This document shows, one piece after another, positions 36,006-64,000 of a stretch of 64,000 nt of DNA. The notes beneath the pieces were generated by a model. It saw nothing but the letters and a program-made list of their open reading frames with translations, did not search any database and was not told the DNA's origin. A program made the translations under genes and the position numbers. This DNA is from Ectocarpus siliculosus (lineage: Eukaryota > Sar > Phaeophyceae > Ectocarpales > Ectocarpaceae), in the NCBI GenBank assembly GCA_000310025.1, contig FN649740.1, positions 4,098,514 to 4,162,513 on the forward strand, read 5' to 3'. Position 1 is the stretch's first letter. Every line of letters starts with the position of its first letter.

Positions 36006-36563
36006 GATAAATTGCATGCCGCGAAGGGGAGCATTCCAAATGGATTGTACACCACTCACAGTTATTATTGATGGCCGTTTGTTTGTCTCGGTGGACGGAG
36101 GAGCTCCTGGTTGTCGTGTGAATATTTCAGCCGAGCCGTAAATTGTTCCACCAACACAGCTGCTTCGTGACACCACCATCTCCCTTGAACCTAATCCCCC
36201 CCCTTTTCCCCACCGCCAACCCAACTACCCAGCTTCGAAACAGGCCGCAGCGGACGCGGTGACCGCGTTGTTGGCGAGGTACATCTCCCCCTTGAGGCGG
36301 CGCAACTAGTTCCCGGGACGTCCGGCCTCGATGACAACGCTGACATGTTTTCCTCCTCGTCGTCCAGCGGCGGTTGGGACGGGGGCAGCGGGCCCGCCTA
36401 CCGCCTCCGCGGGGACTGGGAGCTGCAGGGCGCTCTGGGAGGACCGCTCTGCGGTGCCAGGGTGGGGGCGGACATCATGGTGCACGGCCCGCCGTCGCCG
36501 AGCTCGGCCGCTGGCCGGCTGAGGAGGAGGAGGAGGGAGTCGGTCGGGTGGTACGCTCGGTGA
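31293..36563 (+). CDS. Multi-pass membrane protein with C-terminal C2-like domain, five exons
   Basis: No named family recognised. Exons: 31293-31448 (ATG), 33856-33920, 34221-35001, 35495-35859, 36233-36563 (TGA); phases agree and give 565 residues. Exon 1 and exon 3 carry hydrophobic segments (NIPWFLAGAGVGVPAAVG; VGPACLLLVVLSRSI; AVALAALLLEPLFSAYVLG; LTAGAQLVLWAAVVLAYANV), with Ala and Gly runs between and a Gly-rich linker after. From about residue 346 a beta-rich unit reads EVTVRSIYCSGLDA, RPFYVTVSLGGLTAKTS, FSPTFTEVFPLGCD, AYLTIAVVDR, VVGEVHLPL, which fits a C2 fold (lipid or calcium-dependent membrane binding in known members), with few of the usual calcium Asp residues. The tail (SSSSSSGGWDGG, then YRLRGDWELQGAL) ends in an Arg-rich stretch. 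The start of exon 4 is the least certain; more small exons could lie in the 2.4-kb intron 1. Confidence 0.68.
35149..35167. repeat. TA microsatellite
   Basis: Short (TA)n run in the intron before the C2-domain exons. Confidence 0.8.
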
Positions 36564-36817
36564 GATTGGAAGACGAACGTACACAAACATTCAGCTCAGG
36601 CGAGCAGCCTACCGCCTCCGCGGGGACTGGGAGCTGCAGGGCGCTCTGGGAGGACCGCTCTGCGGTGCCAGGGTGGGGGCGGACATCATGGTGCACGGCC
36701 CGCCGTCGCCGAGCTCGGCCGCTGGCCGGCTGAGGAGGAGGAGGAGGGAGTCGGTCGGGTGGTACGCTCGGTGAGATTGGAAGACGAACGTACACAAACA
36801 TTCAGCTCAGGCGAGCA
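36396..36817 (+). repeat. Exact 211-base tandem duplication
   Basis: Copies 36396-36606 and 36607-36817 are identical as far as I can read. The unit covers the last coding segment of the C2 gene, its stop and about 43 bases beyond. A shorter, diverged third piece follows at about 36818-36877. It is either a very recent duplication or an assembly duplication. Confidence 0.9.
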
Positions 36818-36877
36818 GGAGGAGGAAGGAGTCGGAGGGGTGGTAGCTGCGCTCGGTGAGATAGGTAGACGTACGTC

Positions 36878-47157: not shown

Positions 47158-50100
47158 CTATATTGCCTGTCCGTGGCTGGCGTTCAATGCCTTCAGCGCT
47201 TTCGAAGAGGCTACCGTGTCCTCATGCTCCTCCCCGAGCGCGTTCCGCCGAATGGCTAGGGCTCGCTCCAAGAGCGGATTCGCCTCGGCGTGATTCCCCT
47301 GCAGAAGGCGGCGCACGAGGGAGAAGCGAAGCGGGGCCCGTGTCGGTGGATCCTATGGGCCTCGAAGCGTATGCATACGTGAATGAATAACTATCGACCG
47401 AGAAACGACTCACCCCGGAGGGACGTGGAGGGGGAGGCAAGGAAGGGAGGCAGGTGATGACGACGGTGTTACTGCCAGTCTCCGAGGCTTGGAAGGGGTT
47501 TCGACTTGCCAGATACCTCGAGGGGAGTCTCTACAAACCATGTAAGAGGTACGCGTTCCCATGTGCCGACCCCCTCCGAAATGGCTCGACATGGGTATGC
47601 ATGCCGCTGCTCAATATCACAGGATCGATCAAATCGCTTCAAGAACCAAAACGGAACGACCCAAAAAATACAGCGCATCTTGGAAGAATCCTCAAACTCT
47701 CGTCGGTATGTCGGGGACTTAAGCGGACGGGTGCTTGAAGGGAAATATATTGCATTGGGGGGGTTTCATGAACGGAATGTGATCGCCAACGAAACTCGAC
47801 TTCGGAGGGAAGTATCATCTGTACAGCCAATATCCCTGTCTGGGTGTGGAGTGGAGGGGTTCTGCCATGACCTGGGTGGTGTGGATCAGGCCACTTCTCC
47901 TTGAGGTTGGCAGCTTGCGGATAGGATGAGGTGGGGCATCATCGACAAGGAATTCGCTGATGCGGGTTGAAAGCTAATTACGAATCGTTAACATGGCGAA
48001 AGTGCTGTCTCCCTGTGCAGGACGGGCTTTCGTCGAGTCCGCGCCGAACACTCTGGTGCGGGTTGCGTGAACCTGGCCGGCAAAACCCATCACTGACAAC
48101 GAAATCACGGAACGGGGAGTCACCTGTGCTAGCAATGCGAATACCCGATTGTTCAGGCTTTCAGCAAGACTAGGGTCGTCGGGACCGAGCGCTTTCTCCC
48201 TGATCTCGAAGGCCCTCAGGTACAAGGCGTCCGCCTCCTCGTGCTTGTCCTGCATGGGGGTATCCATGGCGCGCAGCAAACGCACGGCATATGCTGTCGA
48301 CCACATTCCGCTACCCTTTCCGTAGCCGATGAAGACTTAATCACAGTTTCTCAGCACGCCAGACCCTCCAACCGCCTGCGGCCGGCGCAACTCGGCGCCT
48401 TTGCGATACGATTCAACGTTCAGATTGACAGCCGTCGCGATGGCCCCGCCGACATGCGCTTGGCTCAACTTGACACAACAACAGCTATCTATCTGCTTCT
48501 ACGAACTGCTTCTAGGAGGCCTCCGACAGGGAGTGAGCTCTCGCCTGTGCTGCTGCCAAGTTACCCCGGGTGTTGATGGCCTTGGCAACCTCCAGGTCGT
48601 CCGGGCCGAGCAATTTCTCAGAGGTATCGATGGCCCTCAGGTACAAGGAGTCCGCCTCCTCGTACTTGCCCTGTACGAAAAAAAAGGTTCCATGGTGCAG
48701 GGGGTATGTTGACCACCGGGAAAAGTTGTCAAACAGCATCCCACTACCGTTAACGTTACCATGTGAAGATTTCGCGCATAGTTCACAATAATCAAACCTA
48801 CCTGCGGCAGTTGGAACTCGGCACTTTGGCGTCACCGTCTGCGTAGCGATGGTCGTGATGAGATGACTCCACTCAACAACATCCGAAACCGATATATCGA
48901 CGAGAATGCCTAAAAGGGAACAGGCTGGCACCTGTGCTTGTAACATGAGGCCCCAGTTGTTCAAGGCTGTGGTAACCTCCGGGTTGTCAGGACCAGGCGC
49001 ATTGTCGTAGATATCGACAGCTCTCCGGTACAAGGCGTCCGCTTCCTCGTAGTTGCCCTGAAAGGGAAGATGCATGCGGCAGTAACAACGCACGGGACAG
49101 GGTTTCCATCTGCATCCCGCTACTATTTCCGTCATGAACTGGTGAGGACTCACATAGGACCTCAGCTCATCAAGCGTTCAACGACCTGCGGTAGGTGCGA
49201 CTCGGCATCTTGGCGACACCATGAAACCATCAGATATGCGACGGCAACGGTGAACGGCCTGAAGACGCGCTTGCCTTTACTTGGCCCAACACCAGCTGTT
49301 CCATACACGTGGAACTGAGGTGGCTCAAAAGGCAACATGGCTCACCCGTGCTTGCAACGATCTCGCCCGGTCGTTTAGGGTTCTAGAGAGCTTCGGGTTG
49401 TCGGAACCGAGCTCTTTCTCCTCGATCTCGATAACGCGCACGCGGAGGGTGTCCGCCTCTTCGTAGTTTCCCTGCACACGAAACAGCGAAAGATCAAGTG
49501 AAGCCCCCCGTGGGAAACACTTATCAACTACACAACTCAGTCCTACTTCCCTTCATGGGGCCGACCGCGATATTGCTACGGCTCACCGAACCCTTCCACG
49601 TCATGAGGTAACCTATTCAGCACATTCGAGCGCCGGTCGCTCCATGGCCGGACCTCGGCAGCAAAGATGCCCCGAAAAACAAGCTGTGCTCGACAGTTAC
49701 GTCCGCCCTCCCGGACCACGGTACACCGACCGGAGCAAACGCTTCAAGGGACGACCGCAATACCTGTGCTTCCAACCCCGTCACCCGGCTGTTCAGGCTT
49801 CTGACAACCTCTGGGTGCTCGGGGCCGAGCGCTTTCTCGTTGATGTCGATTGCTCTCTTGTACAACGGGTCCGCCTCTCCGTACTTGCCCTGCACGAAAA
49901 AGGAGCCGTTGCCAACCTCATCCCACCACCATTTTCGGAGCCATCGGTGAAGATTCGCAGGCGGCTTACCGCACCAACCCCGTCAAGACGTGCGGGTCAT
50001 ACTTGAACTACTCCTTCTGCACGGTAGGCTAAACTGCTAGCAGTGAGGTGGGGTTCAGATCGCCCCCGAAGTCATATGATTCAATAACTACTACAGGAGA

Positions 50101-53100
50101 CGGGCGTGCTTCTGAAAAAAAAATAAAAGGACCAGAAACGCGGGAGTGTCCTTGATTTTGGTGTCCTGAAGGGGAGAACGATAGGGACACGTGCCCGGGA
50201 ACAGGCTCATACTTGTTCTTGTAACGCATACGCCCGGTTGTTGAGGGTTTTAGCAAGAGTCGGGTGGTCTGGGCCAAGCGCTTTCTCCTCGATGGCGATA
50301 GCCCTCAGGTACAAGGCGCCCGCCTCCTCGTACTTGCCCTGTACGGCGATGTCCAGCGGGGACAGCAGAAGGCAGGGTAGATGTTTTCAGCCACGTCCCA
50401 TGCTTTCCTTTCCGCAGCGGTTGGTGAAAACAGTTTCACAGCTCTCATCAAAACCCTCAAGTACCGACAGCAGATGCAACTCGATACTTTTGTTGGCGGC
50501 CCCATATGCCCTGCAGATGGACTGCCGTGGCGATGGCCCTGACGACACCCTTGACGCGAGACCCATCGATGGAAAATGACGCCTAGCAGAGAACAGGCTA
50601 TCACCTGCGTGTCTAACATGACCCCCCAGTTGCTCAGGCTTTGGGCAACTTCCGGGTGGTCGGAGCCAAGCGCTTTCTCCAGGATCTCGGTAGCTCTCAG
50701 GTACAAGCCCCCCGCCTCCTCGTACTTGCCCTGCACGAAAGGGGTACAGTAAGGGTAGCAACAACCCAACCGGTGTCAAACCACATCCACACACCTTTAG
50801 GCTTTGGCCAAATGGTAGGCGAAATGGTAGACCAATTGGTGAAGGTCTTTCAACTTCTTAAAGGGGTTATTTTACGGCGAGAGGGTACGTCGAAGGACCG
50901 ATCCGCGGGCGGCGGTCTATTGTGTAAGACTTAATGCAATATTAGCGGATACCGTCACATAGACTCCGATGAGATAGTATATGGTCGGGCGTATATCAAG
51001 GCCTACACCTTCAATATTGTTTAGGACTTTTTATATTCATAAGTTAATCTTACACGTCCGCATCGTGGGGGCTCGAGACTGCGATACGAAGGCCGTACAA
51101 CACAGAATATGTTTTTAACACGAACAAATTGAGATTTAAACTGCTACAAGATACCCATGCCTTACACAGAACATCTAAAGTTTTTGCAACAATAGGATGC
51201 CAATTTTATACAACAGACACTCATCCAAACCGGGTGAATAGGAAGAATATATGGGTGAGGCAGGAAGTCCGAACTCCCGCTACACGTGCCTTCGTGTCTG
51301 CCAAGACGGAATGTTCCGTGGTATGGATATCATGGTAGGGTGTGTACGTTGTGTGTTAGAGGACATACAGGACCCTTCTCAGTTTCGCTTCGTGGTGTCA
51401 CTTTCTCCGGTAGTAATCGAAGGAGTTTGTGCTTGATCACGTCAACGTGCCACCAACCCTTGCAGGGACACGGAAGTCTTTGACGGCATCGACAAGGTGT
51501 ATCTGGTAAGGGCTTGTCGCGATGGGTTCTGGAGGCAGTGTGACGGTCATACTAACAAGACAAGTCGAGACAGACTCCGACAACATGGACAAGTGATCTC
51601 AGCGAAAGTAAGATATTTAGACTACGACTACAAGTATGACCTCCGAGGAGGAATGGGACGCCCTTTGGGCGCTCGTTTCTGTTCCGATTCCGAGCTGGAG
51701 ATTGCTTCCGAAAGTCTTTTTTCATGCTGTCTGGCACTCAGTTACACAGGATGGAAGCACTGGTGATATGGGAGAAGCTCATGACGGCTCCGGGTACGTG
51801 TCCGCCGGGCTGCTTTTCGAAGAGGACAGAGATACATGGGAACCTCCCGAAGAGACACTTTGGGGACGACAACACCGCCATCCGTCGAACAGGAGATGTG
51901 AGGAAAGGGATTGGCACGGAACATGAGGCTAGATCATAAAGGAGGGTGGTGCACCTGTGCTTGCAGCGCGTTCGCCTGGTCGTGAAGGGTTTCGGCAAGC
52001 GTAGGGTCGTCGGAGCCAACCGATTTCTCCTGGATGGCGGTAGCTCTCTGGTGCAGGGAGTCCGCCTCCTCATGCTTGCCCTGTACGACGTAGGGATAGC
52101 AACGCACGGCAGATGTTGTCAACGACACCCATCAGGTTATTTTACGTAGCCGATGAAGATTAACGTACAGCTCACCACATCAAAAGTATCAACGACCTGC
52201 GGCAGTTGCAACTCGGACCTTTGGCGACACCATTCATTTTTTTAGGAGGACAGTCATCGTTGTGATGGCCTGACGACATGCTCCACACAACAACAGTTGC
52301 GGACCGAATCGACGGAGACTCTCAGCAAGGCATGGATTCTCACCTGTTCCCGTAGCACATCCCCCTGGTTCATGAGGGTTGATGCAAGCTCCAGGTCGTC
52401 AGGGCCGAAGGCGTTCTCCAGGATCTCGATGGCCCTCTTACACAAGGGGGCCGCCTCCTCATGTTTTCCCTGTACGGTAGACAAGAGTGAGGAAAGCAGC
52501 GCACGCCAACAACGTTCCACTACCCTTTCCGCAACCGCATGGATGAAGATTTACTCATGGCTGGCGCAACCTGTGGCGACACCATGGAGCTTGTAGATCT
52601 ACCGAGCCGCGGCGATGACTCCGACGACGTGGTTGGCTCGATACAACACAGCTGAGACTTACACCGACGATTACGCCTATCGGGAGACAACATATCACCT
52701 GGGCTGCCGCCACGTTCCCCCGGTTGTTGAGGACCCTAGCAACCTCTGGGTGGTCGGGGCCGAACGCTTTCTCCAGGACGTCTGTAGCTCTCAGGTACAA
52801 GGCGTCCGCCTCGTCGTATTTCAACTGAATCACAAGGGCGGCAACGACAGGGAACCGTTGTCAACTACACTTCTATTCCGGGGCCATTGGTGTGTGAAGA
52901 TCCGCGCGCAGGTCAACGCATCACACCTTCACAGACCTGCGACAGGCGCAACTCGGCACTTTGCGGACCCCATCCAAAGCTGACGGTTGGCGGTCATGAC
53001 GATGGTCCCGACGACATGCTCGACATGACATACGTAACACCCGCGGTAACCCCTTGATCGAAGGAGCCACATCCAGCAGGAAAAGCGCTACTTACCGCTG

Positions 53101-53224
53101 CTGCTAAGTCATCCGCCGAGCTTTTGAGGCATCGTCCAAACACCGGGTGTTCAGGACCCAGCGCTTTCTCCTGGAGCTGGATGACTTTCATGTATACGGG
53201 GGGCGCGTCCTCCTTCTTTTGTTC
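47158..53224 (-). CDS. TPR-array gene of the NB-ARC-TPR type, twelve TPR exons, head missing
   Basis: Exons (minus): 53224-53096 (diverged), 52824-52699, 52469-52344, 52080-51955, 50730-50605, 50338-50213, 49889-49764, 49471-49346, 49057-48932, 48670-48545, 48249-48124, and last 47298-47158 with TAG. All internal exons but the first are exactly 126 bases, phase 0 at both ends, one 42-residue kinesin-light-chain-type TPR each, beginning GKYEEADALYLRA and carrying EKALGPDHPEVA and LNNRG..L.AQ. Such symmetric exons can be added or lost without breaking frame. The last exon (GNHAEANPLLERALAIRRNA to NASHGQAI) has its own cap-like sequence. In Ectocarpus, TPR arrays of this kind follow an NB-ARC domain in candidate pathogen receptors; TPRs would bind a ligand or partner. 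No NB-ARC, signal or start exon was found up to 60 kb, so this is a truncated receptor or a stand-alone store of TPR exons. The exon ending at 48545 is followed by GC, not GT. Confidence 0.88.
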
Positions 53225-53430
53225 CTTAAGGTGCAGCAGTGAGGGCAGCAAACGCAACACACATGTTGTCAGGGACATCCGGCTAGTTTGTTCCGGGGCC
53301 ATCGGTGGAGCCGCATCACACACCCTCAAAAGGACGAGCGGCAGGCGCAAATCGGCACGTCGTCGTACCGTGTAATCTTTAGATCGACAGCCGTGGCGAT
53401 GGCCCCCGCGACATGCTTGTCTTCACTTGA
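48124..53430 (-). repeat. Tandem exon-plus-intron duplication units of the TPR array
   Basis: Introns share blocks near equal distances from each exon. On the plus strand these are a CTGCGGCAGGYGCAACTCGG-like block (about 48368, 48795, 49190, 50467, 52195, 52933, 53338), a GCCGATGAAGATT-like block just before it, and a GCGATGGCCC-CGACATGC-like block after it. Units of about 400 bases therefore include exon and flanking intron. Homology ends near 53430. Confidence 0.7.
50731..51954. other. Long spacer inside the TPR array
   Basis: Between the exons at 52080-51955 and 50730-50605 the spacing rises to about 1.2 kb from the usual 270-400 bases. The inner part (about 50770-51900) lacks the shared intron blocks and is more AT-rich around 50930-51240. 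It looks like an insertion or unrelated filler; no ORF of note. Confidence 0.5.
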
Positions 53431-54028
53431 CACAGCATCCGTGGCTTATCACGCAAACCAACAGTCAGGCGGACAAGAGAAGACGGCTCGCTTGTCTTGT
53501 TAACACCCTCGTGTGGGGGACCACATTGTTTTGCTCTCCTTTTCACTTTGGCGCCTGACAATCATTCCCATGCAGGCCATTTCTACCACGAACAGAGACA
53601 CCACCTACATTCGTGTGCGATTAATGTTCGGCAGATGCTTACACTCGCAACTCCAACTCATCGCATCCCTCTGCTATACATGTGATGGCCAGCATTTCAT
53701 CGCCACAACGAAGCGAAGGTCCTTGCTCATTAACCCGTGCTTCAAGCGCATATGCCGGCGACGGACAAGAACGTGGTACTGCAACTACGGTGGCACAAGA
53801 GGATGACAAGCAAGCGAAATCGGGCCATATTGCCGGTGTATGTACAGGGGTCGGGGCGGGGCAGAGAGAACCAAGTATAGCAAAAAAAACACCGGTTGTG
53901 ACAAGTCTTGTTCGAAGTCACTTTGGATATGCAGCAGTGTTGTGACCAATCGGTACATGACGTTCAGAGGCATGGAGCAGTGACGAAGATACATCGATGA
54001 ATTTGGCGGGGTATATGTAATCATGGCC

Positions 54029-54168
54029 GTGCATGGGGTAGTCGTTAGACCATTGACCTCGCACCCCTACAAAGCCGGGACGGAGCACGCCGGGGTTTCA
54101 CCGGACCAGGGTAGCAAATCACATCTCACCAAGCCCGAAGCGCTGCGAGGTAGTCGGCGAGTCGCATG
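54029..54168 (+). repeat. Dispersed repeat, copy 2
   Basis: Matches 27401-27528 in the same orientation (GTGCAT start, GACGGAGCACGCCGGG, TAGCAAA, TCGGCGAGTCGCATG end). About 0.6 kb upstream of the TPR homology breakpoint. Confidence 0.6.
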
Positions 54169-55499
54169 GAGGGTGCGCTGCATCCAGCTAAGCGTGTTCG
54201 GCATCTCTTGTGCCTACGTCCTTGCATACTGATGACAGCTGCGAATGACTTATTATTGTATTTTCTGGTGCTTTGACTTCCAGAGACAGAAAAAAGTACT
54301 GTGTAACTGCTTCGAGGATGATTGGACCAATTAATCACAACGTGGTGCGATCATCACCTTTGCGCGGAGTGAGGGTTCTCGACCCCGCGTGGCATGATCT
54401 ACTGCACCACCATTATGGTTACCGTACCAAGAAACAAACCAAAGGCAAAACCAAAAAAGGTAACCTGGTTGTAGAGCTCACCAAGCGATTGGCGTGTTTT
54501 ACAACGCCGGTGCCAAGCGAACAAAACCCACGGCGCGTGGGTGGGAAACCAACCTCACGTTTGCTGTTTCCTTGTCCCTAGCGTCACGACAACGCTCGTG
54601 GTGCCGGGTCGGCGGTGGGGAAACCCAAGTGACACGCAAGCATAGGACCCCAATCAACGCAAGAGATCCGGGGGACGATATGATGCCGGACCGGAGTTGT
54701 GCGGACGTGCACGTGTCAAGTGGAAACAAGATGAAAACTTTCGTCCGTGCGACGGGATAGCAACCGAATTTCAAAGTTGTTCGGCCGCCGTATGTACAAA
54801 AAGCTGTCGGAGAAACTACAATACGTTTACCGGCGCACGTTCTTGAAACGCAGCGGCCGTATCATCAACACGTCCCAAAATCTGTATAAAGGAAGCACGT
54901 TTTCTCGAGCTCAGAGGTATTCAACCCAGAGCTGAATTGGCTGGCAGTTTTGGATCGGTACTAACAAAATAATAAACGTGAAGACAACAGAAGTCTTGGC
55001 CGACATCAACCACGGTCGCAGAAAGGTCTGTCGGGTCCAATTCCGACAACAAATAACGGCATCAGATCAGGGCAGGCTCAGTGACGGGGCTTTCTGCAGG
55101 GTGTTGAAGCGAGAGGCAAGAGCACAGACGCGGCGGACGAGCAGCGACGGACCGTGCAGGGTTTGAAGCTTCTCTCCGCTCTCCACCCGTCTCTTATTAT
55201 TAGCCCATATCCAACGTGTGTGCGGGGCGCACACGCTGAAGAAAACTTGTCTTCGATACATCTGATGGTCACCCCGGTGGTCTATGACAGACAGTGGTTA
55301 ACCTCGCGAACCTACAAGTACAGGGTTGTGGTTTCGGTTCTCTCTAAGCGGGTATGTTTCTTTGTCCACAATCTTGGGGTGGAAGCGATCAATTTCGTGT
55401 GCGTGCAAGCCTCGACTTGACGGTCGACGACGGAAGGGGACGGCTGAACCCTGCTCGTGAACAAAAATCTAAGGAAAGTGCCACAGGTGGCAAGGCGGG

Positions 55500-55570
55500 G
55501 CAATACATATATTTACAAGGATCCCCTTCTGGAGTTTGGTGCCTTATCTCCCGGGGGTGACGCACGATGA
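55500..55570 (+). repeat. Short segment similar to 57285-57355
   Basis: ACATATAT..ACAAGG, CCCTTC-GGAGTTTGGTG and TCCCGG-GGTG occur in order at both places, about 1.8 kb apart. In one plus-strand frame both give YIYKxxLxEFG...PGGD. This may be two decayed copies of one exon. Confidence 0.4.
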
Positions 55571-57925
55571 CATCCATAGATCGATCTATCGATCCATCGA
55601 TCCACAGTTGGCCATATCTCAACTCTCGACGTTTCACTTTCCGTATGACACACGGTAACGTATCGCATCATTTCATGTACCAGGTAGTATAATCTAAGGT
55701 GCGCTTTGCGAATGCGGGAGTGTGTGCGTGTGGGTTGCTGCTGCTCTGTCGTTTTCGCCGCAGGCCCTTCCTCTGCATCTTGGTAATAAGCTTGCAGCGG
55801 TAGCGCGTCGCGGTGAGTGGCTTTCGAGACCTTTCCGCAGGTGCTCGCTGAAAAGCAAGACAGCCTGCTGAATTGTGAGAGGTTGCACACCGCTGAGCGC
55901 TAGTGCGAAACTCGGCGACCCTCAGGACGTTGAGGTATGATATGTCATTGCTACTGGCTGACCCCAAGGCCCGCTTTCGGTGGTAAAAGATGAGAGTGAG
56001 GAGGGGGCGTGTGCGAGCTCATCCTCGAAATCATGGAACCACACAAACCCAGCAACGCCAACCAATCACACGCGTGCAGAATACGGTACTGGTAAGCTAA
56101 GCTACGCCACTGAAAAAGTATGACATCGTGTTTTCGAATTTACGCATATGTATGTATTTCTGGAAGATCAACAAACATCATATCATCTGCCTCCTTGAAA
56201 CGTTCCTTGAAACGTTCCTTGTTTGCGGGAACGAACCATCCTGTCTCTGGAACCGCGCTTTCCAGAACACAACGCTTCTGACTATTTCATCCTTTGCTGC
56301 TGCGCCACGTGTCGAAGACTAAACGGTGTGTCACACGCAAACCCTCGTTGAAAAGCCACGCTGCAGAGGAGGGCAGCATCTAGCTACATCGAAGGTTGGA
56401 CCATCGCCAGCAAACATGTCGTAGCTTTTTCCCGCCCACCCACCCCCTTTTCTTTCGAAGGTGGGGGGTAGGAGAGAACGCTACGAGTGACGGCTCACTT
56501 AGGAGAGGCCACTGAACACTTTCTGTGACTCGGAGTTGGAGCCACCTTCGTTATCTAGAAGTAAGAACAGCGAGCATGTGGTGCTTTCTGAATGGTGGTG
56601 TGTACAATTGGGAGGCCGATCGTCCGAGACTGCTACTGTACAACACTTTCGTCCCGTCTGGTGGTATTCGGAGGGATATGCCGCGTTCAAGTAGCAGAGA
56701 CACGTTAGGATACCGCGGAGGCTTTGTGCCGTGCGGAACGCGTAGTACGGGGGAAGTCTCCCGCCGAAGCCCACAAAAAATATTAAATGAAGGAAATTCG
56801 AAAGAAAAACAATAAAAAAGAACTTGGGTATATTGGTGTCGAAGAAAGGGTTTTCGTGCACCGTTGAATCGTCTCTAAGAGGTGCTGTCAGGACAGACAC
56901 ACATTTGTGTCCATGGAAAAATGTCCTAGTCAGGAGGAAAATGTGCCTAACCGGAGTATCGAACCAGTGTCCTTTCGACGAGGCCATCATAGGCGAAGGA
57001 CCAGGTGTGTCGGATAAAGGCAAACGTCAATTCACGGGAACCTTGGGGAATCGGTCCCTCCGTATTAATCGTGTATATTTGTACCTGGTTGCTCAGGTGT
57101 GTGGGAAAGTACGTGCTGGTGTTGCGCAGTTGTGCCTGTCGATGGAAACGTGCGTAAGTACTTCCTGCGGAGTCTTTCGTGTTATGGAAAGCCTCCCCTT
57201 CTCAGCGCCTCTCAGAAAGAAGAGTGAGAAAAGATTCTTCTACCCGAGAGAACGATGTGCCGAAGCACAAAACACATCCAGGTGACTTATTCACATATAT
57301 ACAAGGCAGCCCTTCGGGAGTTTGGTGGCCGGCTTCCCGGTGGCGATCAAGAAGACATAGCCATCATGGTCATTGTACCTCGACCTTCGGTAGTGCCGCG
57401 GTTTCGTACGTTAATCTGGGACCGTATTGCGGGGAAACGTTATTTTCTCACCGTGACGCTTCGCGTGCGCGCGTTGAAAGATTGAGTGCTTGGTGAAGGC
57501 GATAGTGGCGGCGTCACCGCAGATTCTACTACGGAAATGAATGCTGCTGTGTTTCTTGAGTTACACGTACATTCTCTTCGACGGTTATTTGCAGCTGGTT
57601 ATTCTAGCATCATCGCTCGAGACTTGGAGATCGGGTTACTGGGGCCCACTTTAAGTGTTTAAGTTTCCTCAAGTTATTATTACACTTTCCTCGATTTAGA
57701 CCCCGGAGTATTCGGGAAATGACTGTCTCGCATTGCGGAGGGCCGGTGGCTGCGCATTTATGGGCGTGTTCTGCTGTAGCTGGTGATCCAATGTAGTTGT
57801 GTGCATTTCCTGTGTCGGCAGCGCGGAGGTGTGTGCAAAGGGTTCCAAGTTTTATCTCTCCTCCTGATCGTGCTCTCCGGTGTCGTTGGTCTAGACTATA
57901 CAATCGTGCTTCTCGGATCTGCTCT

Positions 57926-58204
<279 letters not shown>

Positions 58205-60684
58205 TCTCTAGGGTCACCCGCCTTCACTCCTCCACGACGAGTCCACTCTTCCTCTACCCCCACTACACATTGCGGACTCGTTCTTGGCCTTCGACTGCTG
58301 TCCACCGAGAACCACCCGTCATGGACTCCTTCTCGAGCTTCAGATGTGCGATGATTTGCCCTACATGTAGTTTAGTCTCTTTTGGTCGCTCGGCGTATTT
58401 TCGTTTCGAGCCCTGCCGTGACATTTTTGTGGTTCGGAATTCCGAGTTCCTTCTCTCACTACATAGCTATATACACGATCTGTCCCTCTCTCTCTTTCCG
58501 TGTTTCTGTCTCCCTCGATGGGCACACCCGCCCATCACGCCACCAATCCCTCCAGTCCCGTCAACTGCTATCGGACCCCCTCTATCTGCAGTCTTGGGAT
58601 ACTGGGTCGCTTCACTTTTCCCATGGCAAACAAAGGCACTGCAGCATTTCTTTTTCACCGAGCTGCTACATGAAATCACTTTTTTAAGTCTGATTGATCA
58701 TGTTGCTGGAGTCAGCTGCTAACACTCTATCGATTGACATATTGACATACCTCTCATCTCCCTCCATCTAGTAATCTTATTCTACCGTCTATCGGACTCC
58801 TTTTCTAGCCTCCGATTCACCCATGTCTCGTTGCCAACTCTTCGGCCCTTGCGTTTCAGGTCCACAAATACTTCGCTTGATGCTCGCCGTCGATGAGCTC
58901 ATCAACGTTCAGAATGTCCCTTCATCAAACGCACATGCAAATCTTGCAAATTCTCATTTTTTTTCGTTGAGAGGATTTTGCTGGGTGGGTCGACTCAAAA
59001 ACACATTATGTTGTGTGAGCGGCTGAGCTTGGGAAACGTCACACCGCAGCTGGACACCAGCTGTGGGTCGGTCCTGCCCCCTGCTCTTGTTTTCGTCTTG
59101 CATCACCCCCTTTCTTTATGCAACTGCTGTGGGCTCATGCCCGGGGGGATCACTTCGAGGGTATTGTGCATTCTGTGTGGAATGTATGTACATACACGTC
59201 GTATGCAACGTCACATGCACCTGCATGTACAAAGCATGCACACACAACTTCGTGTGGAAAACTATGAAGAGAAGTGAACAACAACAAGGCCGGTTGTGGG
59301 TACTCGCAACACTGCTGGTGGCCAGAGATCAGGCTGCGGGTTGGTTGGGCACCATTGGCCTACAACCTGGGGGGGGAAGGTTGCACCCCGAAGGGCAAGT
59401 AATCTCGCATCTCGGAGAAATGGGTTATTCCAACTGGCGCGGCAGGCTGGCAGTATTGACGAAGCACGTGTTGAGGTTGATCCCGGCCTCCCAACCTCCC
59501 AACCTCCCACCCAGCGCAGGCTGTGATCCACCTAGACTAGTCTACACCTCTGGCCACCAGTGAACGACCTAAACTCCACACAGACTTTGACTCGAGAAAC
59601 ACTCGAAATATTCGCGTTCTTCCTCCGGCACGGGAAGGGCCAAAGCGTCTCGAGCTATTGCACTCCCGTAGATGCTGTTGTCAATGAACGAAGTACACGC
59701 ACTTCCTTTGCAATATTCGTGGTGTTTCAACCTACCGCCAAAGATCCAAACGCAGGAGGGCCTGTAGACTAATTTGTGGGTCTTTCCAAGTCTCTCTGAT
59801 CAACTTACATATTATCATAATGACAATATGCTTGTGCTACCCTGTTGGCCTTGGGATCGCTCCAGTTTGGGCAGCAGGGCAAAGCGCTAACAACCTCTCT
59901 ACTCTGGTTCCTTGACATGCAGGCTAGACATCAAGAAGGCATGTCGTAGCAACATCTGCTGGTGCCATCCGCAACAAAGTAAATTCGCCTAACTTCGTCT
60001 TGAGAGCGGGATAGATCTTACCTGCCCATCTGTGACGGTAGCAGCAGAAGAAGCAGGGGACGCCATCAGAGCAAACCAGGGGCGGAGGTTGCGTCGTGTG
60101 TGAGAGGTGACCTGCTGTTGATGTCCAGCACTCTGCTTCAGGCGTCTGCGATGGATGTCGCTGCTTGACGAACAGACCAGGAGTGGGTGAACTTCTTTCC
60201 GCTATGCGGGCATATGGACCCACCTGCCACACAATGATGCAAAGTGACAAGTAGCGCCATGGTAAATTCAACCAAGGGCCATCGGCAGGTCCGGCAATCG
60301 ACTACTAGATACTTGTCACATGGCGCCCATCATGATGACATCATAATGCATCATGTGGATATGCCGATATGCCAATATGCCGAGGAGATATGCCGCCCGC
60401 ATCTCCAGTGTGTAAAAATAGTAACATGCGGTCGGATCGCTCCCCCCCCCCCCCGAGATCCACCGAGTTGCGTCTCCCCCACCAAGTTACGCTGGTTGCG
60501 CCAAGTTCAATTGCGTTAAAACGTACCTTCTGCACGCTCTCAGCTTAGGAGGGACCTTGAGGTATAGACCTGGTGTAGGGCCGCGTGAAAGGGAAAAGGG
60601 AAAAACTCAAGAAGGAAGAGAAGTCGATTTCACGGTCGGCGGATATAGTCCGTGGTGACCGGCAGGGCGGGCGCGCCGAACAGC

Positions 60685-63600
60685 ATGTCGTACTTGCTGC
60701 CGCACTTGAGAACAGGGTGGGCTGTGGACCAAGCCATCATCAACGAGGAGGAGAGGGTGGTGTGCCTGAGGTTCGGGCACGACCATGACGTGACATGCAT
60801 GCAGATGGATGAGGTCCTTGCGGGCATTGCGGAGGACGTCAAAAACTTTTGCGCCATCTACGTCGTTGACGTTTCGGAGGTACGCACACAGGGAAGAGAG
60901 AGCGGGGTTGACGTGGTACAATAGGTTGTTGGGGGCGATGAAAAAGAAGCAGTGTACAGCAGCGGTTACCCCTGTCCGCCCTCTGTACCCGAGATTAATC
61001 ACAACGCTTGTGGCTTCTATGGTTGAAACAATACGTACCATGAGGTACATATGTTTGTACACAATTGTTGCCCGCCACCGTGCCGACAACTGGGTTGTGG
61101 TGAACTGCATTTAAATACTTGGGTAGCTGTTGTATGTAGTCACAACGCAGGCAGTGCAGGGCGAAGGCATTTCTTCGGCCCATCCCCCGCCTACGTATAC
61201 ATATATGTATGTATAGCTAATCTACGTTGCTTTGTCGTTATTTTCAGGACTGCCTTTGTTAACGGCTTTTCATGTCGGCACCATTTGCCGCGTTAGCCAG
61301 AAACCACGGTACAGGCAGTACAGTAATTTTTGGGCGGTAACAGGCCACTACGGTAAACTCCGGACGTGACTGTTCACCACCACGATAATTTTCTTGCGGT
61401 ACAATGTACAGTATAGCAAAATCACCACCGCCGTGCAGAAATGTGCTACTCTCTTACCGTTACTGGTCACCACGGTATAAATTGTACAGTTAACCACGCC
61501 ATGGCACGTCGGGCCTTGTTCGGTTTGCTTGCTTTTAAGTGTTCCTTACGCGTGTGGTCACCACACAACAAACGTGCGCGACACGTTCACCAAGCATCAC
61601 GTCCGTCAACCGGTCGCATGAAAAGGTTGAAAACCAGGCGGCATGTGTACATACCCACTTTACTGCAGGCAGGCTCTCGTGGCCTCAAGACGACGACGGA
61701 AGTCCAGCGCTGCGCGAATCAATTATTATGTCATCGGCAGAAAGGGCAGGCGAAACAAGCAAGCGTCGCCTTCCTCATCCAGAGAAACGGTGGAATTCAA
61801 CGGTTCAAAAACAAACCAAGAAAACAACCCTTACGCAACAGGCCCCCACATCATTAGTCCTCGAGAAGTCAATCACTGCCCGAGTGCTTGCCAATTGCGT
61901 AGAGGGGCACATGGCCATTTTACTGGGCCGTGTAACGCGCTTGGTGTTTTTTCTGTGCGGTAGATGGGATTTTGTTTTTATTTCGGTAATGTTCTCCGCG
62001 GTAATTCGAAAACACGGGAATTGCGATTTTGCCCTGAATTTTTTGTACGGTAATGGCGCAATTCAATTATTTTTTCGTTAACGGCTTGGTCGTTTATCTT
62101 AAGACCAATTTATCACGGAAACGATTTGGATGTGAACGGTAATTCTCATTTTTCACGGGATCACGGGAAATGGTAACTACCGTGGTTCTACCGCAGTACA
62201 ATTACAGCTCTGATTATTTTATACCCTAACCCAACCCTTCTGCGGTGTCTCAGCGGAGTTTTTGCAGCCGCAATGGGGTTCAATTGTGGGCGAGAACGGG
62301 GCTACAAGCTAGTGACCTTTTTTTTATTTTTTCCTTCCGTGCTGTATGGGGACATGGAAAAGGCCAGTATCGACGGGCACAAATACGGGCGACCGTTCCA
62401 CACAACAGCGCCCAGACCCGTCGTCGGCAACCACAAAGTCCCTTTAGTAGAGCAGAATAGACCACTGGCAAGTGCGGGCTTGGACCTCGGTACTTTTGTC
62501 CATTTGGTAACAATTTCGCACCTGACTCTTTCAAGTCTACCTCGATGACGTGTCTGCCACTTTCGTGTGCTGTCCTTTCGCCAAGCGCGGGATAGACGTG
62601 AAAAATATGTACCTCCGGGTTGGGTTCGCATCGTTCGAAGCCTCGGAAACGACTCGTGTTGTATGACACCAAAGCGCAGGCCGAGGGGGGGGGGGGGGGG
62701 GCAGGCAGCGCCCCTACATGATGGGTTTCGCCGCAAAATACTCCGCGCGGAAACGGTTGCGTGATTCATTAAGTCTTGTTTGCACCGACCTCGCCAACCG
62801 GGTGACCAATGAAACGGCAAAACTGTCAGCGTTTAACGATCAAGGTCCTCGGAAGGAAACTAAACATGGGAATGAGCATGCCGCAGTATTCCCCACACAA
62901 ACCCGTTGCGAGAGCAACACACCAAAGCTTAAGCTTCATGCTAGCCCCCCCCTGAAAGTCAGTATTGCAAAGGGTGAAGGACGGCAATAGGGTCACTTCA
63001 GGGGTTTTGTGTGTTGTGTGGGTCCAGGTAGTGCCCCGATCAGCCAAACGCGAGCAAGAGCCCGGGCGACATTTTCGCCCCGAGGGCGTTTTCCCTCTGT
63101 AATTGCAACGACCCACCCATTACCTTTTTTGAGAACGCACCCGGGCGTTCATTTTTTCCTAAACAAGTTGCGCAACAGTAGTCTTGTTCGTGCCTTGGCG
63201 ATCGCGATCGTGCTTGGTTGCCATCACGATGCTCTGTAACGAACTGTTTGTCGTTGGTCGATGTAGGGTTGCTTGCCTTGGGATACCTTTTGGAGAGCAC
63301 CGCCAATGCATGACCACGTTGCCGAGTCCTCTCAATACCCGTACGTTCTCGGGGCGAATTTCGAACACCCCGCATATCCGTAATCGAGGCACCGCCTTCC
63401 CGAATCTTTCGTCAGTGTTTCCAACCCGCTGCCTCCACCAGCCTGTGCCTCACTTTCTGTTGCTACATGTTTTTTTCTGCTTTTTTTATCTCACATAACA
63501 AATCCATCTATATCCATTGAAAAGAGTCTAGGATATCCTGGTACATGAATTCATAGAGTTAACGGAGTGTTATAGTACCTGTTTCTACGATTCCCCAAGC

Positions 63601-63791
63601 ATTTATTTATTTATTTATTCATTTTTGGTGTTCGCCTTTGTCCCTCTTCGCAGGTGCCGGACTTCAACGACATGTACGAGCTCTACGACCCTTGCACCGT
63701 GATGTTCTTCTTCCGCAACAAGCACATCATGATCGATCTCGGCACGGGAAACAACAACAAGATCTCGTGGGCGTTCAACAACAAGCAGGAG
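60685..63791 (+). CDS. DIM1: DIM1/TXNL4A, U5 snRNP 15-kDa protein, first two exons (3' end outside window)
   Basis: Thioredoxin-fold component of the U4/U6.U5 tri-snRNP, needed for pre-mRNA splicing in the nucleus. Exon 60685-60879 starts MSYLLPHLRTGWAVDQAI (family MSYMLPHLHNGWQVDQAI) and includes RFGHDHDVTCMQMDEVL and NFCAIYVVDVSEV. Exon 63654-63791 follows TTCGCAG and reads VPDFNDMYELYDPCTVMFFF, RNKHIMIDLGTGNNNKISWA, FNNKQE, then a GTGCGC donor. Both exons are phase 0. They give 111 of about 142 family residues; the last 30 or so should lie right of the window. Identity to the animal and yeast proteins is obvious throughout. The intron is 2.8 kb, large for a gene this small. Confidence 0.97.
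61300..62190. repeat. Possible repeat element in DIM1 intron
   Basis: AACCACGGTA near 61303 and TACCGTGGTT near 62178 are inverted copies. The stretch between is rich in CGGTAA/CGGTAC words in both orientations, unlike the rest of the intron. This suggests a small inserted element or decayed repeat; ends are not firmly fixed. Confidence 0.35.
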
Positions 63792-64000
63792 GTGCGCTCA
63801 ATTGTCCATCTGCAGCCGCGTTTTCTGAGGATTGGTGCGATTGTTTGTAAGGGTACATCACCGCCGTAGTATCGCGCCCACCAGCGCTGTGTTTGGGTTT
63901 GTCAAACAGCGATGGAAAGGGCTGGCGCGATGTTTTGTTCGATGATGTCAAACGCCCCGTTGTCGACCTGAGCGCACACGAGAAACAACGGCATGCCTCC

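Follow-up and report, generated by a model that had tools for sequence, protein, structure and literature searches.

The twelve TPR exons on the minus strand between positions 53224 and 47158 of the 64,000-nucleotide window of Ectocarpus siliculosus DNA (C15:4098514-4162513) are best explained, with a probability of about 0.55, as the 3′ part of a brown-algal split-TPR gene which is nearest to the NB-ARC-TPR genes in its DNA and has lost its 5′ head. The exons themselves are ordinary for the family. In brown algae, split TPR arrays have been proposed as the variable part of the immune receptors, and one TPR per exon is reportedly the layout of the brown-algal NB-ARC-TPR genes described by Zambounis in 2012 and Teng in 2023. 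The 42-residue TPRs would stack as a superhelix, the inner face of which would differ between repeats and bind the ligand, and in the headed relatives an N-terminal NB-ARC or RelA/SpoT-like domain would convert binding to a signal. This signalling step would be missing at the window array, and what is left may be a TPR-only protein or a young pseudogene. We infer the type of the lost head from exon similarity alone; no remnant of any head was found at the locus.

Exon structure and protein identity of the array

The features of the array and of its upstream region are listed in Table 1; all genome searches covered the 189.5 Mb assembly. The exon scan found all ten exons E2-E11, between 52824 and 48124, to be exactly 126 bp long, open and in phase 0-0. 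Each of them has an AG acceptor, and the donor is GT in nine and GC in E10. These ten exons on the minus strand, the terminal exon with its stop (TAG at the end of 47298-47158) and a single diverged first exon had all been proposed in the first-pass annotation and were found here; its total of twelve exons was also correct, although its breakdown into eleven exons plus a terminal and a first one would make thirteen. Spliced in silico, E1-E12 give 510 codons with a single stop at the end, that is, an open frame of 509 residues.

Table 1 Features of the TPR array and of the region upstream of it (window coordinates)
Feature	Position	Strand	Remarks
Stretch with two exons of DIM1-like gene	60652..63797	+	Right-hand boundary; gene start at about 60.7 kb
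Second dispersed repeat upstream	56304..56817	.	Identity of copies mostly 77-87% (40 scored out of 495 candidates)
Dispersed repeat next to array end	54016..54530	.	Identity of full-length copies mostly 83-86% (40 scored out of 2,462 candidates)
Sequence 5′ of E1	53225..53453	-	Homologous to array introns: 60 bits by held-out profile, shuffles no higher than 1.1
E1, diverged first TPR exon	53096..53224	-	129 bp; acceptor AAG, donor GTAAGT
TPR exon E2	52699..52824	-	126 bp; exon scan and profile
TPR exon E3	52344..52469	-	126 bp; exon scan and profile
TPR exon E4	51955..52080	-	126 bp; exon scan and profile
TPR exon E5	50605..50730	-	126 bp; preceded by 1,224 bp intron
TPR exon E6	50213..50338	-	126 bp; nearest to array consensus
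TPR exon E7	49764..49889	-	126 bp; exon scan and profile
TPR exon E8	49346..49471	-	126 bp; exon scan and profile
TPR exon E9	48932..49057	-	126 bp; exon scan and profile
TPR exon E10	48545..48670	-	126 bp; GC donor
TPR exon E11	48124..48249	-	126 bp; exon scan and profile
Possible further TPR exon relic, last intron	47820..47919	-	Weak, 12.6 bits, DNA profile
E12, terminal TPR exon	47158..47298	-	46 residues and TAG stop

The protein joined from E2-E12 matched TPR_12 in Pfam with 5e-109 and, among PDB entries, kinesin light chain 1 with 2.3e-64 (6fv0 is one of the matches); the array is therefore not a chance pattern, and its TPRs are, judged by sequence, of the kinesin-light-chain kind. This TPR type is common to the array and to the TPR domain of kinesin light chain, whereas the layout with one repeat per exon is a feature of the array. 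E12 bears a weak resemblance, of up to 32.8 bits, to TPR stretches in arrays with an NB-ARC head and in arrays with the second head type described below (RS).

Two of the introns contain sequence of other kinds. The stretch 50985-51954, before E5, is unmatched by any other DNA of the genome. A segment of 169 bp in the last intron (47360-47528) differs by one mismatch from C24:2883925-2884093 and has sharp ends; the pair looks like a recent copy, in either direction, and no TPR exon was found in the 3 kb examined at the C24 site.

E1, at the array edge, has diverged further than any other non-terminal exon. It is better delimited as 53224-53096, its acceptor AAG stands against CAG at all eleven others, and it scored 25 bits with the exon profile, compared with 77-90 bits for E2-E11, the training set of that profile. 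E1 alone matched no Pfam family and was detectable only by the array's own profiles. Its open frame and perfect donor are unlike a rotting edge, which counts against the loss of a head.

A working TPR-only gene of about 535 residues, translated from a start in the former intron with E1 as its present first coding exon and yielding a putative free binding subunit or decoy, is rather unlikely in our estimate. The degraded E1 acceptor and the intactness of every exon downstream of E1 would suit it, as would the 66 open in-frame codons before E1 with ATGs at 53302 and 53278; 10 of the 11 other exons are preceded by 12-40 open codons, and E10, where the frame reads back through E9, by 169. However, in-frame upstream ATGs are also present at E9, E10 and E11, so that the ATG before E1 is not special, and the codon usage of the extension is not coding-like. 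In the search with the extension included, the TPR-type matches listed began at query residues 5-29, and the first residues had no separate match of their own among them. Further upstream, at about 53438, an ATG out of this frame was seen by eye.

Constraint and variation of the exons

None of the twelve exons has a broken frame, the only oddities being the E1 acceptor and the single GC donor. Ten stop-free exons were reached in 3 of 20,000 neutral star simulations, an approximate figure as substitutions were uniform. The protein-profile scan revealed no broken or partial exon matches in the window array or in the array on contig C27, compared with 1-13 in each of the other eight arrays. Decay is not entirely absent from the array, given the weak signal of an exon relic in its last intron (Table 1). 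Since the frames are intact, any loss of constraint is argued to be recent.

Among E2-E11, pN was lower than pS in 44 of 45 pairs. Their pN/pS of 0.67 was the highest of ten arrays (0.34-0.64 in the other nine); prolonged relaxation of constraint or diversifying selection would account for it as well. Exon positions 30, 33, 37, 40 and 41, which we take to be the canonical concave TPR positions 2, 5, 9, 12 and 13, had a pN of 0.47 compared with 0.27 at the other non-signature positions (P = 0.023). An excess with P < 0.05 was found in seven of the ten arrays, the window array included (the exceptions were L051, L053 and L058); thus six of the nine headed arrays sampled vary more at the ligand-facing positions, as the window array does. 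At these five positions pN about equals pS (0.48), so that the variation shows either freedom or diversification and positive selection is not proven.

Heads of TPR arrays in the genome

When 119 TPR matches among those listed (frames of at least 300 residues excluded) were grouped on one strand with gaps below 12 kb, and a head was assigned if it lay within 25 kb upstream, at least 37 clusters were obtained: an NB-ARC head precedes 13 of them, an RS head another 13, and 11 have neither. The cluster and head counts are lower bounds with only the best candidates scored. The window array is one of the 11 and ten others are likewise without either head; its headlessness is unusual, not unique. 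Several of these 11 clusters are single exons, and one, C24:1953, has RS exon A interrupted by a stop.

In the NB-ARC cluster at C25:1899 kb, the matches cover almost two TPRs in one frame. A 16,827-residue "open frame" on C25 was set aside, as it may stem from a run of N (the locus L005 has 1,153 N). At the C21 and C6 loci, TPR_12 and NB-ARC occur in the same long open frames of about 780-1,080 residues; these are NB-ARC-TPR genes whose repeats are not split by introns, and they exist alongside the split-exon kind.

Of four other arrays without NB-ARC, those on C20 and C30 were seen by eye to have an upstream exon in common, and a search with this exon returned 16 places, the query included (C30:672257, C20:1141644, C33:11719 and 13 more). 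At the eight RS loci that were read, exon B lies upstream in all eight and exon A in six. The RS exon joined by hand to the exon before it matched Pfam RelA_SpoT with E 0.00098 and 19.8 bits (the curated cut-off is 27), single RS exons gave no RelA_SpoT match, and this family was matched by four of six RS relatives within an E limit of 0.1, the best value being 0.0098. Compared with solved structures, the RS head profile matched Tas1 (0.0011 over 62 positions), which is presumably RelA/SpoT-like. The second head is probably RelA/SpoT-like on these sequence matches. No RelA/SpoT-TPR gene of brown algae was recognisable among the papers listed in the literature searches, most of which were swamped by other meanings of the terms. 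The 13 RS-headed clusters share the 126 bp TPR exons with the window array and many of them are intact, but the upstream head exons A and B are theirs and the window array is without them. As a by-product, these RS-headed arrays are more surprising than the headless array itself.

Search for a head upstream of the array

The genome has 27 NB-ARC matches at E up to 0.001, and none of them is on contig C15 (5.8 Mb). A profile made from the genome's own NB-ARC exons likewise found none in the window, so that the absence of an NB-ARC exon upstream, which the first-pass annotation had noted, was confirmed by both searches. Over about 19.6 kb past the window end, the two matches in L036, which scored 3-6 bits (E 0.7 and 0.08), were taken as noise and L037 gave none. 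The missing NB-ARC alone is insufficient to show headlessness because a second head type exists in the genome. RS head exons A and B were also absent near the array, the best match in the window having E 0.70.

A distance of 7.2 kb separates the array from the next gene, which is DIM1-like and lies on the opposite strand. The codon-usage scan of the sense strand from 53230 to 60680 was judged against 100 shuffles (95% at 12.6 bits, maximum 15.7) and revealed nothing over this null save a CT repeat; the next best score was 11.1. A long CT simple repeat with several open frames occupies 57922-58209 of the window. Of the controls, two RS head exons scored 52 and 25 bits and a DIM1 exon 26.5 bits, and all three were detected; a second DIM1 exon was missed at 10.9 bits, under the 95% point. 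One held-out RS exon, scored whole, reached just 0.03 bits per codon. A head of short exons or odd codon use could therefore escape the scan.

This leaves some room for another undescribed head, the third of its kind, that lies between 53.5 and 60.6 kb and is invisible to the searches. Two different heads already precede TPR arrays in this genome, and one of them, RS, is barely recognised by Pfam. We regard such a head as improbable. Besides the lack of a coding signal, the five minus-strand ORFs of at least 120 residues tried in this region remained without a Pfam match up to E 0.05, and dispersed repeats are all that its DNA matches elsewhere in the genome. One 128-residue sense ORF has 25 other matches, which are mostly short and 12 of which contain stops.

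A bolder proposal is that the TPR array is a sensor independent of its head, be it NB-ARC, RelA/SpoT-like or none, and that the headless array acts in trans as a sensor, a decoy or a trans-spliced partner. We mention it as a speculation of low probability.

Origin of the array and its relation to other arrays

The introns were compared using held-out profiles, trained without the stretch under test. Homology was recovered in nine of the twelve stretches 5′ of exons, the profiles failing on those before E5, E8 and E12; pairwise global alignment was uninformative, with an intron identity of 0.746 compared with 0.741 for shuffled sequences. The homology extends 5′ of E1 and stops near 53453, from where unique and repeat DNA follows, and the putative break would lie at this point. 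The profile scan of the whole window found no exon-like sequence from 53453 to 60.6 kb, and a repeated exon search of 53454-54015 and 54531-60600 gave 0.4 bits at best. An apparent exon relic at 53735-53790, noticed by eye, was rejected, as it matched neither the exon, the unit nor the exon-plus-intron profiles.

When ten arrays were compared, the best nucleotide match of each of E2-E11 was in their own array. The window exons fell into one clade with six C27 exons in the nucleotide tree and formed a group of their own in the midpoint-rooted protein tree. The intron homology, the within-array best matches and the trees indicate that the array probably expanded at its present site, by tandem duplication of a unit made up of an exon and an intron; for most units this duplication is shown. 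Owing to the symmetric phase 0-0 of E2-E11, any subset of them could be spliced or skipped without a frameshift.

Outside the array, the DNA matches that come closest while covering nearly a full exon are to TPR exons 2-6 kb downstream of the NB-ARC exon of a gene on contig C27. Among the ten arrays, the best outside match was C27 for eight of E2-E11, C2 for one and the RS array on C33 for one. The kinship with NB-ARC-TPR exon arrays that had been proposed for these exons is thereby upheld, and of the two origins suggested at the same time, the better fit is a receptor severed from its head.

The exons of the C6 and C9 arrays had no best matches in their own arrays (0 of 6 and 0 of 7), so exon exchange or cross-locus duplication may occur in the genome. 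The other suggested origin, an orphan cassette of interchangeable exons copied from the array into receptor genes by shuffling, is highly improbable because the array exons match each other best among the ten arrays compared and, in the genome-wide DNA search with the whole array, no match covering nearly a full exon exceeded 79% identity, although C6 and C9 hint at exchange, LRR-only exon arrays of Saccharina japonica are called a possible reservoir for shuffling in PMC11378527, and one decayed fragment of 83 bp, 89% identical to E6 and followed by a TTG repeat, is present at C29:487.7 kb (L060 1407-1489). Near-identical copies of the array exons were not found in receptor genes, this C29 fragment being the only trace.

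Comparison with known systems

Like the brown-algal NB-ARC-TPR genes, the window array has one 42-residue TPR per symmetric exon of 126 bp, and the NB-ARC genes of this genome have 126 bp, phase 0 TPR exons too, the C27 gene being the nearest; NB-ARC 5′ of the TPRs is theirs and is absent at the window array. Work on the brown-algal NB-ARC-TPR genes is cited in PMC7317505 and PMC11378527. The latter describes brown-algal LRR-ROCO arrays with one LRR per 72 bp exon in phase 2 and a ROC-COR GTPase. The LRR-ROCO and LRR-only arrays resemble the window array in having one repeat per exon, symmetric exons and repeat-only arrays, whereas the window array consists of TPRs in 126 bp, phase 0 exons.

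The intact headless array, together with the half of the counted headed clusters that carry another, possibly alarmone-type head, suggests that the sensor and signalling parts evolve separately. RelA/SpoT domains are listed among the N-terminal domains of fungal NLRs in PMC10197012 and PMC9815663, and the RS-headed arrays may be a brown-algal parallel, which is directly testable. Elsewhere in the window, a unit of 211 bp is present in perfect tandem duplication at 36396-36818.
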